Source of the DNA: Allorhodopirellula heiligendammensis
Lineage (GTDB): Bacteria > Planctomycetota > Planctomycetia > Pirellulales > Pirellulaceae
NCBI RefSeq assembly: GCF_007860105.1
Contig: NZ_SJPU01000002.1
Span: forward strand, 1,043,739-1,107,738
Direction: 5' to 3'
Length of the DNA: 64,000 nucleotides
The notes under the pieces were generated by a model. The model was not told the DNA's origin. It saw nothing but the letters and a program-made list of their open reading frames with translations, and made no database searches. Of the stretch, positions 20,930-30,711 are shown piece by piece (position 1 is the first letter of the stretch; every line of letters starts with the position of its first letter). The translations under genes were made by a program, and so were the position numbers.

Positions 20930-21760
20930 ATGACAGATCAATGGATTCAAGGCGAACTGCCCGACGACGTGCTGGTGGAGCTACAGGAAGCAAAAGAGAC
21001 ACTCGAACATCACGGACTTGCTGAGCGGTTGACCGAGCTGATGGGGGCACCGATTACGGCATCGATCAAGCTGTTGCCGTCCATCGCGGAGGACGCCCTG
21101 CACTCGGCTGTGGAGAAATCATTGCAGGCAGCGCTCAAGGTGGCCTTGCGGACCCTCGGTGAGGAGACGCCCAATGGGAAACCCAAGTTGTTCAGTCATA
21201 AATTGATGGCGGGGCTATCAGGGGCTGCCGGGGGAGCGTTTGGACTCTCTACCGTCGCACTCGAACTGCCAGTGTCTACCGTGCTGATTCTCCGTAGCGT
21301 CGCTGACATCGCGAGGTCGCAAGGCGAAGACCTAACCGATGTCAAGACTCAGCTCGCTTGCTTGGAGGTGTTCGCGATCGATGGCGGTGATGAGGGGGAT
21401 GGCGGGGACGATACCGAAATCGGCTATTTCGCAGTCCGTGCAGCCATGAGCAAACAGGTCGCAGACGCGTCGAAATACGTCTTGAAATACGGTGTCAGCG
21501 AGACCGCCGCACCGCCGCTCGTCAAGCTCCTGCAGATGATCAGCCATCGCTTTGGAGTGGTGGTCAGCGAAAAGCTGGCCGCTCAAGCAATTCCCGTGAT
21601 CGGTGCGGTGGGTGGTGCATTGATTAACAGCTATTTCATCGATCACTACCAAGAATTGGCGCGTGCTCACTTCACCGTCCGCCGGTTGGAGCGAGAGTAC
21701 GGCAAATTGTTGATTGAAGAGGCGTACAACAGGATCGATGCCGCCCGATCCACATCGTGA
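20930..21760 (+). CDS. EcsC family protein
   Basis: A 276-residue protein with the Ala/Gly-rich helical core of the EcsC family (SHKLMAGLSGAAGGAFGLSTVALELPVSTVLILRSVADIARSQGED). It ends with a second Gly-rich hydrophobic region (IPVIGAVGGALINSYFIDHYQELARAHF). EcsC homologues are widespread membrane-associated helical proteins of unclear biochemical function, first named from the Bacillus ecsABC locus. No ABC transporter genes are next to it here. An AGGAGA ribosome-binding site precedes the ATG. Family assignment is good; function is unknown. Confidence 0.85.
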   Translation: MTDQWIQGELPDDVLVELQEAKETLEHHGLAERLTELMGAPITASIKLLPSIAEDALHSAVEKSLQAALKVALRTLGEETPNGKPKLFSHKLMAGLSGAAGGAFGLSTVALELPVSTVLILRSVADIARSQGEDLTDVKTQLACLEVFAIDGGDEGDGGDDTEIGYFAVRAAMSKQVADASKYVLKYGVSETAAPPLVKLLQMISHRFGVVVSEKLAAQAIPVIGAVGGALINSYFIDHYQELARAHFTVRRLEREYGKLLIEEAYNRIDAARSTS

Positions 21761-21946
21761 AATCTGCCTGAACTGACATTCACTCGCACGGGTAGCACGT
21801 CCATTCGAAGACGCGGTGAAACCGGGCACTGAGAGCCTAACAAAAATTGTTTTTTGGCCATTTTGGCCGTCGCAGGCAGGAGCGATTTCGCTAAATTGCT
21901 GCCGCAAAAATAGTTGTTGTGTTTCTTCCGCTTTTGCTCCGCGTCT

Positions 21947-23461
21947 ATGCTCGAATCGACACATTTGCCAGCCGGAATGTACGGCGTTTTTCTCGGTGCG
22001 TTGCTGGTCTATTGTGCTGGCTTGTACTTGATCGGTTGGCTTGCCCAACGCCGCATTCAAAATGTCGAGGACTTCGTCCTGGCGGGCCGCCGCTTACCGA
22101 CATCCCTGGCAGCGATCACGATCATTGCCACCTGGTTCGGTGCTGAGTCTTTGATGACAACGGCCGACGAAGTTGGCAATGAGGGACTTCGTAAAGCCAT
22201 GCTTGATCCCGTCGGAATCGCCTTGTGCTTGCTATTGGCTGGGCTGTTCATCGCAGGACCGATGTGGCGAATGGGCATCCTCACCGTTTCGGATTTCTTT
22301 CGCGTTCGGTACGGAACCGCCGCCGAAAAGTTGGCGTCGTTGATCATCGTGCCCAGTTACTTCGGTTGGGTGGCGGCCCAGTTCGTCGCCCTGGCCCAAA
22401 TCCTCGAAGTTTTCTTTGGGCTGCCAAAGGAGGTGGGGATCATTCTCGTTGCTTCGGTCGGCACCGGTTACACGCTGATGGGAGGGATGTGGACAATCAC
22501 CTGGACCGATGCCATCCAGATGGGATTGATCCTGATCGGACTCTTGGTGCTGGGGCACGCCATTTTGATCTATCTTGGGGATGGCAGTGTCGCTGCTGGG
22601 ATCACCACCATGCGCACTGACATCGCCGACAGCCGCTGGCGAATTGCGGATCCTGAAACATTCTGGCGGGATACGATGGTGGCTGTTAGCGCACTCGCGA
22701 TCGGTGCGTTGGGCAATCTACCCATGCAAGATTTGATGCAGCGAATCTTTTCTGCGCGGAGCGACGCGGTGGCGGTCAAGGCATGCTTGGTAGCCAGCGG
22801 CGGGTACCTGTTGATGGGGATCCTGCCTGTCGGTACCGGCATGGCAGCCCATTTGTTGCTACCGCGTGAACACGGTGAACTCGATGGCGTCGTCGTGATG
22901 GTTGCGGCTAAGTTACTCAATCCCGCGTTACTACTGGTTTTCTTCCTAGCGATTGTTTCGGCGGTATTGTCGACAATCGTCAGTGCCGTGATGGCGCCCT
23001 CGGCGGTGATGGCTCACAACTTGGTCGAGCCCGCTTGGCGGCTACGCCGGACTGCACCGCTCTCACAATCCCAACTCTTGTTGCTGCAACGTGGTGCAAT
23101 CGTGGCAGTGACGATCGTATCGGCGGTGCTGGCGTTGAGTGGGCAAGGCGCGTATGAACTCGTGCAAGCTTCCTACTCGATGGCGTTGGTCAGTCTGTTT
23201 GTTCCCTTCGTCTTTGGGATTCACAACAAACGCCTGCCACCGCAGGCGGCGTGGTTCGCCATGGGATGGGGCATCGCGGTATGGATGCTTCACTTTGTCT
23301 GCGGTTGGGAGATGTTTTTCGAGCCCTGGCTGGGGCCGCTCGGGTGGGCCATCCCTCACGAATTGGCTGGCATCGCCGTCAGTCTCGCTGGGCTACTCTT
23401 CGGAATCGTGGTCGCCAAATCAACACCACCTCCGATCCAAGACCCCGACGTATCGATGTAA
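21947..23461 (+). CDS. Sodium:solute symporter (SSS) family transporter
   Basis: A polytopic membrane protein of about 500 residues with around 12-13 hydrophobic segments. The SSS-family N-terminus is clear: RRIQNVEDFVLAGRRLP, then TWFGAESLMTTADEVG and MGGMWTITWTDAIQMGLI. It should import a small solute with Na+; the substrate cannot be assigned. The start may be 21947 or the next Met at 21977, which would begin directly at the first membrane segment. It follows the EcsC gene after about 190 bases and no metabolic gene is adjacent to suggest a substrate. Confidence 0.88.
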   Translation: MLESTHLPAGMYGVFLGALLVYCAGLYLIGWLAQRRIQNVEDFVLAGRRLPTSLAAITIIATWFGAESLMTTADEVGNEGLRKAMLDPVGIALCLLLAGLFIAGPMWRMGILTVSDFFRVRYGTAAEKLASLIIVPSYFGWVAAQFVALAQILEVFFGLPKEVGIILVASVGTGYTLMGGMWTITWTDAIQMGLILIGLLVLGHAILIYLGDGSVAAGITTMRTDIADSRWRIADPETFWRDTMVAVSALAIGALGNLPMQDLMQRIFSARSDAVAVKACLVASGGYLLMGILPVGTGMAAHLLLPREHGELDGVVVMVAAKLLNPALLLVFFLAIVSAVLSTIVSAVMAPSAVMAHNLVEPAWRLRRTAPLSQSQLLLLQRGAIVAVTIVSAVLALSGQGAYELVQASYSMALVSLFVPFVFGIHNKRLPPQAAWFAMGWGIAVWMLHFVCGWEMFFEPWLGPLGWAIPHELAGIAVSLAGLLFGIVVAKSTPPPIQDPDVSM

Positions 23462-23729: not shown

Positions 23730-24368
23730 CTAATGGGGCCGCGTGAATCGCTTGCGCTGCTGTTCGATGCGGGCGTGATCGTCACATTCCGCCAAGTGAT
23801 CGTTGACCATTCCCACCGACTGCATGAAGGCGTAGCAAGTCGTGGGACCGATAAACTTCCAGCCCCGGCGTTTGAGTTCCTTGGCCATCGCGTGTGACTC
23901 ATCCGTTACCGGGCGGACATCGTTGCGGGTAAGCACCTTGGGGCTGCTCTCAGGTTCATAGCTCCAAAAGAACGCTGCCAATGAACCGTCGGTGGCTTGC
24001 ATTTCGAGGGCCCGCGCCGCATTGTGGATCGTCGCTTCGATCTTACCGCGATGACGAATGATCGTATCATCAGCGACCAATCGCTGCACATCCTCCGCGG
24101 TCATGGCGGCAACGGACTCAATGTGAAAGTCGTGGAAGGCAGTGCGAAAAGCCTCACGGCGACGCAGGATCGTCAACCACGACAGGCCGCACTGGAATCC
24201 TTCCAAGCAGATCTTTTCAAAAAGATGTCGATCGTCGGCGGTCGGGTGTCCCCATTCATCGTCGTGGTAGTCGCGATACATCGCGTCGGCCCCACACCAC
24301 CAGCACCGTTGGCGGCCCCTGGGATCAATCGAGATGTCAGCGAGATGCTTTCCTGCAGCCTCACTCAT
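23730..24368 (-). CDS. tag: DNA-3-methyladenine glycosylase I
   Basis: A base-excision repair enzyme that removes 3-methyladenine from alkylated DNA. The start at 24368 gives a 212-residue protein; the frame opens upstream inside the neighbouring gene. Typical Tag motifs are present: RCWWCGADAMYRDYHDDEWG (zinc Cys and His, substrate pocket), GFQCGLSWLTILRRREAFR, and the C-terminal TTCYAFMQSVGMVNDHLAECDDH that completes the zinc site. It overlaps the upstream symporter gene by 8 bases and so lies at the end of a lyase-symporter-tag unit. The overlap may only be compact packing. Confidence 0.93.
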   Translation of the reverse strand: MSEAAGKHLADISIDPRGRQRCWWCGADAMYRDYHDDEWGHPTADDRHLFEKICLEGFQCGLSWLTILRRREAFRTAFHDFHIESVAAMTAEDVQRLVADDTIIRHRGKIEATIHNAARALEMQATDGSLAAFFWSYEPESSPKVLTRNDVRPVTDESHAMAKELKRRGWKFIGPTTCYAFMQSVGMVNDHLAECDDHARIEQQRKRFTRPH

Positions 24369-25983
24369 CAGGCGACTTGGTGGGTTCGGGGGTTCCCAAC
24401 AGCGAGACAATACAGCCAATCCCCACCATCACGATCGGGCCAAAGACAATCGCCAGCAGCGGTTCGAATGGACTCGCCCATCCCGAGAGCGACTCGGGCC
24501 AGTACGCCGAGCGGGATGCCGCCATCCATGCGACCAACATCACTCCGACTGCGGAAGCTCCAATGGCACCCGGACTACGAATCGCAGGTACCAATACCCC
24601 CAGTAAAAACAGGCCGATGATCGCTGCCCCTAATACGCCGGACAACAACCACCACACATCCAGGGCGCTTTCGGTGAGGCGAATCAAAGCCAACGCCATC
24701 ATGGTGCCCATCACTCCCCATGCGATCGTCGAAAGTCGCAGCACACTGACGTCTTCCGCGTCGGTGGAGTTGGGCCGTATCAGTCGCTTGAAAAAGTCGC
24801 TCATGACGAGCGTTGCCGATGAGTTGAGCGAGGTCGAAACCGTGCTCATCGCAGCAGCGAAAATTGCCGCGATTAATAGTCCTCGCGCCCCTTGGGGCAA
24901 ATGGGATGCGATGAAGTGCGGGAAGACGCGATCACCCAAGTCCCGCTCGGAGAGAGCCGCGGCTGTTTCGGACAGCTGCAAATCATAATCCGGTGCATCG
25001 AGAGGAATTCCCGCCTGCATCAGCTTCTGCTCAGCAACAATGACGCGGACTTCCTGGAGATCAGTCGGATGACTTTCGTAGTACGCGTACAACGACGACC
25101 CGATGAATAGGAATAGAGCGCTCACGGGAACGTACAGCAGCGCGCCGAACCACACGCTTTTCGCAGCTTCGTGGTCGCTTCGCGCTGCGATGTAGCGTTG
25201 GATATAACTCTGGTCGATACCGAAATTTCGCAGGTTATCAAAGATCCCATAGGCGAAGATCACCCAGATCGTCTTTTCTGAAATGTCCCAAAAGGTAGCG
25301 TTTTCAGGGGATAGCGAGAATTTGTTGGCGGCGTCGGCAACTTCGATGACTTCGGATGGTCCGCCCGGCATATCCCACAGGAGAATTCCGAGAGCCAGCA
25401 AAGCCCCTGCTAATAACACCACGGCCTGAATCGCGTCAGCCCAGATGACTGCGACCAGGCCGCCGACGAACGAGTAAACCGTCACGGCCACGCCGGTACA
25501 CAGAATGACGGTGCGAATGTCCCAACCAAATAGCACCGCCATCGGGAGAGCCATCAGGTACATGACGACGCCAATCCGCGCGATCTGATAGAGCAGGTAG
25601 AAACAACTCGCGTAGATTCGAGCCCACAATCCAAAGCGGCGTTCCAACAGCGAATACGCCGAGACCTCCCCAGAATGCCGATACAGGGGCACGAAAAAGC
25701 GTACCGCGATCGCCGCCGCCAACGGCAACGCCAGCGAATACACGAACACATTCCAGTTATCGACAAAGGCTTTGCCAGGCAGTGCCAAATAGCTGATGCT
25801 GCTTAAATAGGTGGCGAAGATCGACAAGCCACACAGCCATCCCGAGAGCGTTCGCCCGCCAGCACTAAACTCTTCCGCAGAGTTGTTACGCCGCCAAAAA
25901 TACAGTCCCAATCCAAGGATACCAACGAAGTATCCCAGCAGGACTGCCCAGTCGACGCCAGTGAAAAAAGTTGCGGCGATCAC
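24361..25983 (-). CDS. Sodium:solute symporter (SSS) family, lyase-linked
   Basis: A 540-residue polytopic transporter with the SSS signature near the N-terminus ([42 protein letters not shown]-like segment) and about 13 membrane segments. It starts 4 bases inside the end of the DapA/NanA-family lyase gene, so the lyase and the symporter are probably one catabolic unit. By analogy with sialic-acid or sugar-acid modules it may import the substrate of the lyase; this is inference. It is not closely paralogous to the symporter at 22-23.5 kb. Confidence 0.88.
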
Positions 25984-26903
25984 AAGCTCTCCACGCTGCG
26001 AAGGATTTCGGCCACACGGTCTCGCTCGGGCTGAGCAAAAGCGTGAAACGGATCGGCCGGTAGGTCACCGCAAATGCCGATTAACGACGCGGCCGCCTTG
26101 GTCGCTTTGATATGCCGAGAGGCGTATTTGCCAATCTCATAGATGTCTTGGAAACGATCGATCTTGCGCTGCGACAACTGCTGCTTGGCGGCATCGCCAT
26201 CACGCAACGCCTCGTAACAATCGTTGAACAAACCGGGCATGACGTTGGCACCACCACACACGCCACCATCGCCCCCGAGCGAGTGAGCTTCGGCGAGTTT
26301 GGCTTCCGGCCCGAGCAAAATGGACCAATCCGGACGCTCCTGCTTCAACTCGCACAGACGTGCGAAGTATTCCATGTCACCGCTGCTATCCTTCACCCCC
26401 ACGATACCTTCGAGCGATGAAAGTCGACGCAGAGTTTCGATCTCAAACCAGACCTTGGTTAACTGCGGCATGTTGTAAAGCATCAGCGGCAGCGGAATTA
26501 ACGGTTGGATGTTCTCCACATAAGACGTCAACTCGGTCTGCCCAGCGGGAAAGTAGTATGGCGTTGTCAGAACTGCCCCATCGGCACCGCACTCTGCGGC
26601 ATACTCCGCCAAGTTCACGGTTTCGACAAAAGCGGTATCGGTGACGCCCACCAGCACGGGAACTCGGCCGTCTACCAAACGAATCGTTTCCGCAATGAGT
26701 TCGCGGCGCAGTCGGTAGCTCAAGCTCGGTGCCTCGCCAGTCGTCCCCAAAATGAACACGCCCACAGCCCCACCGCCAATCACGTGGTCGAGCAATCGGG
26801 CGAGCCCTTCACGATCGAGCACGTCACGGGCGCTCAGCGGAGTGATCAAAGGCGGCACAATTCCGCGAAGCGAGAGTGCGGACGAGTGCGAAGACACGGA
26901 CAT
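25980..26903 (-). CDS. DapA/NanA-family (dihydrodipicolinate synthase-like) aldolase
   Basis: A class I TIM-barrel lyase of about 307 residues from the Met at 26903 ([23 protein letters not shown]); an upstream Met at 26954 looks spurious. The Schiff-base lysine lies in GVKDSSGD and the catalytic tyrosine in LYNMPQ. The pyruvate carboxylate-binding motif is [10 protein letters not shown], where DapA proper has GTTGE. Linkage to a sodium symporter and not to lysine genes favours a catabolic role such as N-acetylneuraminate or keto-sugar-acid cleavage over lysine synthesis. The exact substrate is not determinable here. Confidence 0.88.
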
Positions 26904-27076
26904 AGGTACTTTCACAAAGAAATAGATCGAGGAGACTAAGAGTCTATAGATCATACGCGGTGCGTGAATGATTGGAAAGTGGACCGCACCGCGAGAGTCA
27001 AACGCTGCGAACCCGGGGTGATCGAGACCCGCTCCCGCCGCATTGCTTCCCCACCCCGTCCCACAGTGGCTTCACT

Positions 27077-27853
27077 TTAGAATTCGATGATCTGGTTATC
27101 GTCAACAATTTCGCAGGGCACCGAGAACCGCGGGTCAGGCTGCTCCAGGGAGATTGGGTCAATTGGGCTGATGTGGGTTAAAAATACCCGTAACGGCTGG
27201 ACACACCTACTGACTTCCGCGACACGCTCGGGGTAGCTGTGGCCCGTTTTTACTGCCCAATCCCGCTGGTGATCGTGGAAGTTGCATTCATGCAGGAGAA
27301 CATCGGCGCCGTGCATCCACCGCAGAATCTCTGGATCGGTGGCCCCCGTGGTATCGGTCGCGTAGACGAGCGAGCGTTCGCTCGCGGAGCCTGGCGTGGG
27401 GCTGGGCCAATCGATGCGGTAGGCGACGGATCCACCCGGGTGAGTTTGCGGTCGCCACGTCACCCGAGCTCCTGCAATATCCAACGACAGATGCTCGCCG
27501 AGGGCTTGATTCGCATCGATGGCATGCCAGGTCACCGGCAACTGGGCTGGGAAAATGCACTCATTGACCAATAGGTTTTGCACCGCAGCGAGTTTTTCGG
27601 CTTCCCCCCACACCCGGACTCGTTCGACGGGGCGTTGGTATACGATGCCGAGCAGAAAGGTCAGTCCCACAATGTGATCTAGATGGGCGTGTGAGAGCAG
27701 AATATCGATCGTATCGGTCTGGATCAGCGATGGCAGGCGAAACATGCCTGTCCCCGCATCGAGCACCAGCCCTGATTCGGGGAGGAAGTAACACGACGTG
27801 TGCCGCGTCTCGTTGGGGTGATAACCGGCCGTACCGAGACAATGAAGCTGCAT
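27077..27853 (-). CDS. MBL-fold metallo-hydrolase (RNase Z-like)
   Basis: A 258-residue protein with the metallo-beta-lactamase fold. The zinc motif HxHxDH is seen as SHAHLDHIVGL, with an upstream Asp in LVLDAGTGMFRL. Later metal ligands are likely in YATDTTG and in the His of HECNFHD. The start MQLHCLGTAGYHPNETRHTSC resembles RNase Z-type and related phosphodiesterases. The RNase Z exosite is not evident, so tRNA processing is not claimed. It is divergent from the ABC importer, and the ABC reading frame runs far back into it. Confidence 0.85.
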   Translation of the reverse strand: MQLHCLGTAGYHPNETRHTSCYFLPESGLVLDAGTGMFRLPSLIQTDTIDILLSHAHLDHIVGLTFLLGIVYQRPVERVRVWGEAEKLAAVQNLLVNECIFPAQLPVTWHAIDANQALGEHLSLDIAGARVTWRPQTHPGGSVAYRIDWPSPTPGSASERSLVYATDTTGATDPEILRWMHGADVLLHECNFHDHQRDWAVKTGHSYPERVAEVSRCVQPLRVFLTHISPIDPISLEQPDPRFSVPCEIVDDNQIIEF

Positions 27854-27966
27854 GCGTAGCGAGGTCGAGGGAGGTTGTTGAATTCCGTAGAAGTCGTCAA
27901 TTTACACTGATTCGTTGTGTTCATGTTTTTCCACGCCCTGATCAATCGGTATCTCCCGTCATCGCC

Positions 27967-28788
27967 GTGAGTCCAGTCCCAACGCCGACCACGATCGCTC
28001 CCACGCCGCACCAGTCTGCCGTATCGATTCGCTCCGGCACCGTCGAGTTCGCGGGCGGTCATCGGGCTGTTGCATCGGTCGATGTGGACGTCCGGCGAGC
28101 GGAGCGACTGGCGATCGTGGGCCAAAGCGGTTGTGGCAAAACGACACTGCTGAGAGTGATCGCGGGGCTGCAAGGACTCACCAGTGGCGATTGCCATCGC
28201 AGCACCGATTCGACCTCCTTCGTATTTCAGCAACCTGCGTTATTACCGTGGCGGCGCGTCCTCGACAACGTCACGCTCCCACTGGAGCTCCACGCTCGCA
28301 GGCGGCTTGCTCATCGAGATAGCGGGGCGTCGCCGTCACCGCGTCAACTGGCCCTCGCCGCCCTCGCCGAGGTGGAGCTGAGTAACGCCATCGATCGGTT
28401 CCCTCATCAGCTCTCCGGGGGCATGAAAATGCGCGTCTCCATCGCTCGGGCGCTTGTGACACGTCCTGATCTGCTGCTACTCGATGAACCATTCGCTGCG
28501 CTGGATGACCTACTGCGGACGCAACTGGGCAGCTTGGTCACCCAGCTCTGGCGCGTCCACCAGTTCACCATGGTACTGGTGACACACAACATCGCCGAGG
28601 CAATCGCCCTGAGTGATCGCATTTGTATCATGCACGCAGGCCGGATCGAGGCGGTCTTTGACAATCCGATCGCGAGCGTGACAAGCGATGTGGCATCGGA
28701 CAGCGAGTCCGACGTGCGACGGACCGCAGCCTTCGGCGAATTTTACGGCGTGATCACTGACCGTTTGCGAGCGGCGGCGGGACCATGA
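27967..28788 (+). CDS. ABC transporter ATP-binding protein (nitrate/taurine/HMP type)
   Basis: Cytoplasmic ATPase subunit of an importer, about 273 residues from the GTG at 27967. The start is uncertain: the frame extends upstream through the MBL gene, and no clear Shine-Dalgarno is seen. Walker A is GQSGCGKTT, the Q-loop is in SFVFQQPALLPW, the signature is LSGGMKMRVSIARAL and Walker B is LLLLDEPFAALDD. The switch His is in LVTHNIAEA. It overlaps the permease gene by 4 bases. The short Q-loop region and the permease type place it in the SsuB/TauB/ThiZ group. Confidence 0.9.
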   Translation: MSPVPTPTTIAPTPHQSAVSIRSGTVEFAGGHRAVASVDVDVRRAERLAIVGQSGCGKTTLLRVIAGLQGLTSGDCHRSTDSTSFVFQQPALLPWRRVLDNVTLPLELHARRRLAHRDSGASPSPRQLALAALAEVELSNAIDRFPHQLSGGMKMRVSIARALVTRPDLLLLDEPFAALDDLLRTQLGSLVTQLWRVHQFTMVLVTHNIAEAIALSDRICIMHAGRIEAVFDNPIASVTSDVASDSESDVRRTAAFGEFYGVITDRLRAAAGP

Positions 28789-29567
28789 AACAGTCCACCC
28801 ACGAAGCGATCGTGAGTGCCCTGAGTGTCGTCGGGGTCGCGGTGTTCGCCGTGCTCATTTGGCATCTCAGTGTACGGATTTTCGAACTGCCTAAGATTCT
28901 GCTGCCGACGCCCGGGCAAGTCGTCAGCGCGGGCTGGTTGCGACGAAACGAACTGATCTCAGCGAGCGTCGTGACATTCATGACCGCAGCGGTGAGCCTG
29001 CTGGTGGCAATTCTACTGGGGAGTGGAATGTCAATCTTGTTCAGCCAATCACGATTGCTCCGTCGTGCACTGTTTCCTTACGTGGTGTTTCTGCAAACCG
29101 TTCCGATTGTCGCCATCGCACCGCTGTTGATCATTTGGAGCGGCTACGAGTTTCGCACAGCCGTGATGGCGACAGTGATCATCTGTCTGTTTCCGATCGT
29201 CAATAACGTGACCATGGGCTTGCAAGCGACGCGCGTCGAACATCAGGATCTCTTTCACTTGTATGGTGCCTCCCGCTTGCAAACGCTGGTCCGGTTACAG
29301 ATCCCCAATTCCATTCCCTATCTGCTGCTGGGGGCTCGAATTAGCAGCGGATTGGCGGTAATTGGAGCAATCGTCGCAGAGTTTTTTGTCAGCAATGGGG
29401 CTAACTACGTGGGGCTGGGGGCGTTGATGACCCGCTGGCAAGGTCTGTTGCAAACCGACGCATTGATCGCCGCCTTGGGAATGTCCACACTCTTAGGGCT
29501 GTTGCTGTTTTCCGCAGTGGACTGGCTCGGACGAATCTTCTTGAGTCGCTACACTCGGGTCGACTGA
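28785..29567 (+). CDS. ABC transporter permease (SsuC/TauC/ThiX type)
   Basis: An inner-membrane permease of 260 residues with about six hydrophobic segments. The binding-protein-dependent EAA-like motif appears as YGASRLQTLVRLQIPNSIPYLLLGAR. It starts within the end of the ATPase gene (ATGA overlap). The substrate-binding protein gene follows after about 130 bases that contain one copy of a palindromic repeat. Together the three genes form a complete importer; a homodimeric permease is expected since only one is present. Confidence 0.9.
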   Translation: MKQSTHEAIVSALSVVGVAVFAVLIWHLSVRIFELPKILLPTPGQVVSAGWLRRNELISASVVTFMTAAVSLLVAILLGSGMSILFSQSRLLRRALFPYVVFLQTVPIVAIAPLLIIWSGYEFRTAVMATVIICLFPIVNNVTMGLQATRVEHQDLFHLYGASRLQTLVRLQIPNSIPYLLLGARISSGLAVIGAIVAEFFVSNGANYVGLGALMTRWQGLLQTDALIAALGMSTLLGLLLFSAVDWLGRIFLSRYTRVD

Positions 29568-29597
29568 ATTTCGCGGTGAAGCTGTGCACATGCTGAT

Positions 29598-29637
29598 CCG
29601 ACGCGCCAGCGAGGGACGACCCGGGCGGTCGCGTCGG
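29598..29637. repeat. Degenerate copy of a palindromic intergenic repeat
   Basis: CCGACGCG (29598-29605) and CGCGTCGG (29630-29637) form the ends of an inverted repeat. The left part continues as CGCCAGCGAGGGACGA, the same core seen at 48220-48269 and 51222-51261. It lies between the ABC permease and substrate-binding protein genes. Confidence 0.55.
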
Positions 29638-29694
29638 ATGAGTAACGCAGCAGGCCGTCACCAGCACAGCAGCGAATACCTACCGTTCTCCCCA

Positions 29695-30711
29695 ATGACT
29701 ACTGACGTGCTCAATTTTCATTTTTCAATAGTAACACGCCTCGCACTGGCAATCCCCGCTCTCCTGATGGCTGGCCAGGGATGTTCCTCTCGTAGCGACA
29801 CGCAATTGGAACGTGCCGACGGTTTGCAGTTGACTCCTGTCAGTGTGCAGCTGAACTGGTACCCGGAGGTTGAGCATGGAGGTGTCTACGAAGCCCTCGT
29901 CAATGGTGCCTACCAGGACCGGAATCTGGCCGTTGAGATCAAACCTGGTGGGCGTGAGACGCCCGTTGCCCCGGAGTTGTTGCTCGGTCGCAGTCAGTTC
30001 GCGATCACGAACGCGGACGATGTCGTCCTGTTCCGGGCGCAGGGTGCAGACATCGTGGCCGTATTCGCTGCGGCGCAAAACAATCCCCGTTGCCTGCTCG
30101 TCCGTGCTGACAGTGGTGTCGAGGGATTCGATGATCTGGCCGGCATCACGCTGCAGTGCCAACCTGGCCGCGCGTTCCTGCCCTTTCTACGCAAACGCGG
30201 ATTCCTCGACGAGGTTCGTGAGGTACCCTACTTCAATTCCATCGCGGGTATGGTTGACGACCCGAAGATGGCCGTTCAAGCGTACGTAGTTGCCGAGCCC
30301 ATCCTCGCCCGCCAGCAAGGTGTGGACGTGCGCACGCTCATGGTCAGCGACCTGGGATGGAACCCCTATTCCAGCGTGTTGGTGACGACGGGCACCCTGA
30401 TTCGAGAGTCGCCAGAACTGGTGCGGGACTTCGTCGCCGCCACGAAGACCGGCTGGGCCGATTATCTAGCTTCGCCGCAGCTTGCCAACGAAGCGATCTT
30501 GAAAGCCAACACGCACGGCATGACCGCTGACGTGCTGCAGTTCGGTGCCGAACAGATGCGGCCGCTGGCGTACCCCACCGAGTCAACCGAACTCGGAGAA
30601 ATGACGCTACCTCGCTGGCAAGAGCTCGTAGACCAGATGAAGGAGATCGAGGTGATTGGTCCAGATGCCGTGCGGGCGGAGGACTGCTTTACAGACGAAT
30701 TCCTGCCGTAG
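29695..30711 (+). CDS. ABC transporter substrate-binding protein (NMT1/THI5-like)
   Basis: The start at 29695 gives a hydrophobic signal (IVTRLALAIPALLMAGQGCSS) with a possible lipoprotein cysteine, although the residues before it are not a classic lipobox. The mature domain has the THI5/NMT1 pattern: QLNWYPEVEHGGVYEALVNG, PVAPELLLGRSQFAITNADD and LVRADSGVEGFDDLAG. It should capture substrate outside the cytoplasmic membrane for the ATPase and permease encoded just upstream. Family members bind thiamine pyrimidine precursors, nitrate, taurine or similar; the Trp/His-rich start resembles ThiY, but no thiamine gene is nearby. Confidence 0.82.
   Translation: MTTDVLNFHFSIVTRLALAIPALLMAGQGCSSRSDTQLERADGLQLTPVSVQLNWYPEVEHGGVYEALVNGAYQDRNLAVEIKPGGRETPVAPELLLGRSQFAITNADDVVLFRAQGADIVAVFAAAQNNPRCLLVRADSGVEGFDDLAGITLQCQPGRAFLPFLRKRGFLDEVREVPYFNSIAGMVDDPKMAVQAYVVAEPILARQQGVDVRTLMVSDLGWNPYSSVLVTTGTLIRESPELVRDFVAATKTGWADYLASPQLANEAILKANTHGMTADVLQFGAEQMRPLAYPTESTELGEMTLPRWQELVDQMKEIEVIGPDAVRAEDCFTDEFLP

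Follow-up and report, generated by a model that had tools for sequence, protein, structure and literature searches.

The stretch of DNA analysed here, 64,000 nucleotides of the planctomycete Allorhodopirellula heiligendammensis (contig NZ_SJPU01000002.1; hereafter the window), carries on its minus strand a gene pair encoding a putative sugar-acid lyase and a sodium symporter. The lyase gene (25980–26903; P0001, 307 amino acids) is read from an ATG at 26903, a second in-frame ATG lying at 26954, and its product is assigned to the DHDPS/NAL superfamily by PF00701 (E 7.8e-56, 189.4 bits against a gathering threshold of 22.1). The symporter gene (24361–25983; P0002, 540 amino acids) encodes an SSS-family protein (PF00474, E 1.4e-48, 166.2 versus 22.8 bits) that resembles SiaT and is a predicted sugar-acid importer. 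Read from the sequence, the stop codon of the lyase (TGA, 25982–25980) and the start codon of the symporter (GTG, 25983–25981) overlap in the four bases GTGA at 25980–25983. The next gene on the same strand is tag, encoding DNA-3-methyladenine glycosylase I (23730–24368; PF03352, E 1.8e-71; TIGR00624, 236.4 bits against a cut-off of 232.5), with an 8-base overlap between the end of the symporter gene at 24361 and a possible tag ATG at 24368–24366. The first-pass annotation of this DNA, a DapA/NanA-type lyase coupled to a sodium symporter through a 4-base overlap and followed by tag, is borne out in both families and in the layout. Judging from the named records that best match the lyase, the genome (7.18 Mb in 35 contigs) belongs to a relative of Rhodopirellula-type planctomycetes.

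The catalytic lysine and tyrosine, K171 and Y143 in the lyase, are invariant in ten aligned sequences that include NanA, YagE and the organism's own DapA, and the structure is modelled with a pLDDT of 92.7. The dapA model TIGR00674 is the best-scoring NCBIfam model, at 156.6 bits, and the best solved relative, 4xky (E 2.1e-85, nearly full length), was deposited as a dihydrodipicolinate synthase, both of which could point to a second 4-hydroxy-tetrahydrodipicolinate synthase serving the lysine pathway. Such a role is very improbable: the score falls under the cut-off of 206.15, a canonical DapA encoded elsewhere in the genome reaches 343.1 bits on the same model, the arginine of the DapA motif (presumably Arg138, the active-site residue after YNxP) is replaced by leucine (YNMPQLTK versus YNIPGRTS in the organism's own DapA), and a linked transporter would be unexpected for this step. 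DapA was rejected as an identity on the first three of these grounds, and a lysine-biosynthetic role, which the earlier annotation had held to be incompatible with its proposal, is unlikely. The structure 4xky, which we take to come from Bacteroides thetaiotaomicron, shares the YNMP..TKV, GPE and GGAN motifs with the lyase and likewise lacks the DapA arginine (YNMPTHTKV); it differs in the name given by its depositors, which may be wrong. We know of no activity of 4xky on 3-deoxy-D-manno-octulosonate (Kdo), the substrate favoured below.

The symporter exceeds the cut-off of TIGR00813 (219.5 against 184 bits), and among solved structures it matches SiaT best (5nv9, E 1.8e-67; runner-up E 4e-38). 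In SiaT, according to a published account, Arg135 makes a salt bridge to the carboxylate of N-acetylneuraminate (Neu5Ac) (PMC5931594). The equivalent residue is arginine in 38 of 38 family symporters, a set in which two are copies from one genome and a few do not adjoin a lyase, and the retention of this carboxylate-binding residue supports an acidic substrate. Ser60 and Asp182 of SiaT are kept as well, whereas the Thr58 position is tyrosine or phenylalanine in 34 of the 38, serine in three and glutamine in one, and the column of Gln82, where the alignment is gapped, holds S, N, A, G, V or H. A further SSS protein of the window (21914–23461, plus strand) has tryptophan at the position of Arg135 and scores under the TIGR00813 cut-off; this second symporter shows no sign of belonging to the lyase module.

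The recurrence of the pair was surveyed in 60 genomes (the window's own and 59 relatives), with the lyase family defined by at least 43% identity; it occurs in 31 of them, including all 13 of the genus. In all, 116 loci were fetched, 36 around such lyases and 80 from named genomes, of which 107 gave a lyase match and 93 were counted after removal of five duplicates and nine low-score loci. The nine loci without a match (L074, L084, L086, L117, L118, L119, L136, L145 and L149) were probably left without one because the open reading frame caller lost the gene; the low-score loci include L071, even though an isomerase and a ribulokinase adjoin its lyase, and L134 was dropped for a distant lyase match of 90 bits. 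Of the 93 loci, 33 have an SSS gene and ten an MFS gene no more than 6 kb from the lyase (43 together). Mechanical calling of reading frames places the SSS gene directly downstream on the same strand in 23 loci, 12 of which share the very same 4-base overlap; in seven others it is directly upstream. The lyase-symporter order thus recurs in many loci and not in all, and the lack of conserved order that was to count against the first-pass annotation is not what is seen. Control loci around other DHDPS-family paralogues, 17 in 17 of the same genomes, yielded with the same models no SSS, MFS, isomerase, ribulokinase, BNR_2, FG-GAP, DUF3748 or GntR neighbour (0/17) and a sulfatase once; when lyase and control loci are paired genome by genome, 14 of the 17 lyase loci and none of the 17 controls have one or more of these genes, sulfatase aside (Fisher p about 1e-6), leaving three lyase loci with no such gene. 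The layout is more than chance. The recurrent linkage of lyase and transporter, the SiaT-like arginine and the catalytic lysine and tyrosine support acidic-sugar uptake and cleavage, and with it the suggestion of the first-pass annotation that the genes form a small uptake-cleavage module; on the evidence of the genes, a real and recurrent sugar-acid module is predicted.

The likeness to SiaT raises the question of sialic acid, that is, of an uptake and lyase module for Neu5Ac, KDN or a related nonulosonate. The lyase shares with E. coli NanA the superfamily, the Schiff-base lysine and tyrosine and the predicted reaction type, but is only 25% identical to it, scores far under the nanA cut-offs (TIGR00683, 102.6 versus 382 bits; NF003164, 114.6 versus 281) and has GPEA and CGGAN in place of GYDE and GSTYN, GxDE and GSTYN being what we take to be the substrate motifs of NanA. 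Another paralogue of the same genome (L004) carries GCDE and GSTYN, and it too remains under the nanA cut-offs. NanE exceeds its cut-off in none of the 60 genomes, with two weaker matches and none in the window genome, a test that bears on the NanE route and not on the NanE-free route of Bacteroidetes type. The identity of a typical NanA was rejected on these scores, motifs and NanE counts. A survey of 2009 reports what it counts as NanA in three planctomycete genera (PMC2693436).

Several neighbours could be taken as signs of sialic acid use. In 35 of the 93 loci a BNR_2 or FG-GAP protein is encoded no more than 6 kb from the lyase. One of the BNR_2 proteins has a distant similarity to GH33 sialidases, but an alignment of 23 BNR_2 domains shows a single arginine column conserved in at least 20 of them, and no role as a sialidase partner is claimed for these proteins. 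The subfamily itself (L041:8238-9335 and 22 others) has recurring WFGG, YKVG, GPIKNKP and LPNPNSG motifs and no conserved arginine triad. Regulators of the GntR-FCD type, the family that holds NanR, are found near several lyases. One long run of genes (L153:5561-15693) encodes NagA, a MurQ-like protein, a NagK-like kinase and NagB ahead of the lyase, an isomerase, a nuclease-like gene and a pentulose kinase, and gives the impression that envelope sugars are consumed jointly. Taken with the scores and motifs above, a sialic acid substrate is unlikely.

A different substrate is suggested by the genes that adjoin relatives of the lyase. A FucI-like isomerase, a ribulokinase or both stand in the same-strand run of the lyase in 13 of the 93 loci, six of them close loci of the same genus. 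A single planctomycete, L054, shows the order symporter-lyase-isomerase-kinase. A metagenome-assembled genome (MAG) labelled Deltaproteobacteria (L104) has kinase-isomerase-lyase, and one from Lentisphaerae (L153) has lyase-isomerase-other gene-kinase. Mapped onto the lyase tree, the presence of either gene (16 of 100 rows) needs nine changes, eight of them forced by well-supported branches; one change is due to L152, whose kinase was rejected as a ribulokinase while the locus stayed inside the label, and without it one fewer is expected. Judged by this tree, the linked genes were not inherited as one block.

The isomerase family is divergent, with 24% identity to E. coli FucI over 408 columns; it gave no sequence match in the PDB and scores under the Pfam cut-offs. 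The member modelled, from L127, is 63% identical to that of the window genome (pLDDT 76.7), and its best Foldseek match is the D-arabinose isomerase 3a9r (E 3.5e-21); 41 matches fall under E 0.001, every one of them an L-fucose/D-arabinose or L-arabinose isomerase. The TM-scores are about 0.5 and the rmsd exceeds 20, values that stem from domain placement or model error. Residues aligned to Glu337, Asp361 and His528 of E. coli FucI, presumably its metal ligands, are invariant in eight sequences of the family. The combination of a FucI-fold isomerase with an FGGY kinase recalls the L-fucose pathway of E. coli (fucI, fucK), from which it differs in that the kinases match pentulose kinase models.

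Two types of FGGY pentulose kinase adjoin the lyase: an AraB-like type in nine loci (L042, L043, L044, L046, L048, L049, L052, L071 and L075) and a TIGR01315 type in three (L054, L104 and L153), with L134 and L152 set aside in this tally. The human and yeast D-ribulokinases are, we assume, members of TIGR01315. In the genomes at large, a strong AraD-like match (E <1e-80) occurs in none of the 14 genomes with the ribulokinase of the genus type (at least 57% identical) and in all nine with a distinct AraB type (37–40% identical), a split with p 1.2e-6, uncorrected for kinship; AraD-like matches are under the curated cut-off in all 60 genomes, and G044, tallied as lacking a strong one, has a match of E 7e-42. 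The window genome itself carries the isomerase (C1:1591751-1593334) and the ribulokinase (C1:1589811-1591400) as an adjacent pair elsewhere (contig C1, 1589811-1593334), with no strong araD match. A ribulokinase that lacks an L-ribulose-5-phosphate epimerase is best read as a D-ribulose kinase, and a 2011 study derives the D-ribulokinase RbtK from an AraB branch (PMC3245297).

These observations suggest the following scheme, in which the new element is that relatives of the lyase adjoin a D-arabinose-isomerase-like family and two FGGY types, which suggests D-arabinose and so Kdo. The symporter would import a sugar acid in a Na+-driven fashion, the direction of transport being the predicted one; Lys171 of the lyase would form a Schiff base with the keto carbon, and cleavage of the C3-C4 bond would give pyruvate and an aldose. 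If that aldose is isomerised to D-ribulose, D-arabinose is indicated and with it Kdo; the isomerase and kinase neighbours in relatives would then convert D-arabinose into D-ribulose (the FucI-fold isomerase) and phosphorylate it (the ribulokinase). The lyase is predicted to be a pyruvate aldolase acting on a 2-keto-3-deoxy sugar acid, with Kdo the likeliest such acid. We put at about 45% the probability that lyase and symporter work together in the Na+-driven import and cleavage of an acid of this kind, likeliest Kdo, which would yield pyruvate and D-arabinose. Whereas the first-pass annotation left the acid unassigned, Kdo is now the leading candidate at somewhat less than even odds. Kdo occurs in Gram-negative lipopolysaccharide, in the pectin rhamnogalacturonan II (RG-II) and in some algae, and, being so widespread, should be a common food.

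A case from outside the planctomycetes bears on the choice of acid. On a plasmid of Rufibacter tibetensis (Bacteroidota; NZ_CP012644.1), a true L-fucose isomerase, a lyase 45% identical to that of the window and an SSS gene are consecutive, and the locus also holds GH28, GH88, GH106, GH127, fucosidase and SusC/D-type genes; the stretch yielded neither a BNR_2 nor an FG-GAP protein. From its gene content it is read as a pectin locus, perhaps one for RG-II. RG-II contains Kdo, and also 3-deoxy-D-lyxo-heptulosarate (Dha) and L-fucose, so that the Rufibacter locus supports a keto-deoxy acid more firmly than it supports Kdo itself.

A number of observations weigh against Kdo and the pathway drawn for it. 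The isomerase or the ribulokinase is near only a minority of the lyases, and the window locus has neither; the Rufibacter stretch yielded no pentulose kinase. The isomerase aligns to E. coli FucI by hhalign at E 2.2e-4 and a probability of only 45%, and L-fucose is also a substrate of FucI-type isomerases. Across the genomes, the isomerase occurs in 17 of the 31 with the lyase and 16 of the 29 without it (p 1.0; three weak matches, G037, G050 and G056, omitted), which is no association. Four genomes of the same genus (G001, G003, G008 and G012) have the lyase and lack the symporter orthologue, the isomerase and this type of ribulokinase; their lyases (loci L047, L045, L050 and L053) form one subclade. 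Symporter and ribulokinase are thus both present in nine of the 13 genomes of the genus and both absent from four, and since the lyase-only genomes form a single subclade, this match across the genus may go back to one event. Beyond the genus, association is weak for each pair of genes (symporter-ribulokinase, p 0.04; lyase-symporter, p 0.07; lyase-ribulokinase, p 0.06), the symporter count being limited to near full-length matches, which omits G030, where the symporter adjoins the lyase. The BNR_2 proteins, with only one well-conserved arginine, do not look like typical sialidases. In six close loci of the same genus, the gene immediately before the lyase on its strand encodes a GFO/IDH/MocA oxidoreductase, which has no place in the Kdo scheme. 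Finally, the 2011 study reports RbtK only in Alphaproteobacteria (PMC3245297). The odds on Kdo were set slightly lower because of the oxidoreductase neighbour and this published distribution.

The same type of module could instead serve another 2-keto-3-deoxy acid: a hexonate or pentonate (KDG, KDA), 2-keto-3-deoxyfuconate, or Dha from pectin. In that case the lyase would cleave or dehydrate the acid, and the isomerase and kinase would act on different sugars set free from those glycans. Both L-fucose and Dha occur in RG-II. After 4xky, the next best solved relative of the lyase is E. coli YagE (E 6.9e-39), annotated as a 2-dehydro-3-deoxygluconate aldolase; it is only 30% identical, and the lyase reaches 98 bits against a cut-off of 390 on the archaeal KDG aldolase model. 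The oxidoreductase family, present in 10 of the 116 loci (for example L043:6620-7999) and immediately before the lyase in the six already described, sulfatases within 6 kb of the lyase in 18 of the 93 loci, and the lack of genome-wide co-occurrence of lyase and isomerase would all fit another acid. Against it, the kinases match pentulose kinase models and reach only 36–44 bits on the fuculokinase model, whose cut-off is 471 (L043, L054 and L155), and no sugar-acid dehydratase was seen among the scanned or modelled representatives of the larger neighbour clusters, the smaller clusters lying beyond that scan. Another acid of this class is a serious alternative, though a less probable one than Kdo.

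The Kdo reading, if true, would supply a candidate gene for a long-standing orphan. Cleavage of Kdo to D-arabinose and pyruvate by Kdo aldolase (EC 4.1.2.23), the reaction predicted for the lyase, was described in 1966, as a later article states, citing Ghalambor and Heath (PMC4412817). The activity stands on a 2007 list of orphan enzymes (PMC1940265) and offers no sequence for comparison. No gene for Kdo aldolase was found in the literature searched, most subscription journals lying outside it; an 'L-KDO aldolase' was engineered by mutating E. coli NAL, as one paper mentions (PMC4016182). The wider proposal is that the lyase family is the missing Kdo aldolase and works with the symporter, a D-arabinose isomerase of divergent sequence and either of two FGGY D-ribulokinases that are not orthologous in a cross-phylum Kdo-scavenging pathway, with hosts in Planctomycetota, Verrucomicrobiota, Lentisphaerota and some Bacteroidota that would draw Kdo from bacterial envelopes, algae or pectin. 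This broader claim is tentative and falls short of an even chance. It would correct annotations that name such proteins dihydrodipicolinate synthase, and since the family is named and has a solved relative (4xky), and a transporter, an isomerase and a kinase are predicted to go with it, a few assays can put the question to the test.

Turning to the surroundings of the pair, tag adjoins it in 2 of the 36 fetched planctomycete loci in which this was checked (L039 and L040, the window genome and its nearest relative), the 80 loci from named genomes lying outside that count. A functional partnership of tag with the module was rejected on this count, and its place next to the symporter is probably packing, as the first-pass annotation had surmised. 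A promoter and terminator scan gave scores below the shuffled means. On the plus strand of the window, an EcsC-family protein (20930–21760) is encoded upstream of the second SSS symporter, and an ABC ATPase (read from its open reading frame), a permease and an NMT1/THI5-like binding protein stand in a row at 27691–30711, possibly for uptake of a thiamine precursor.

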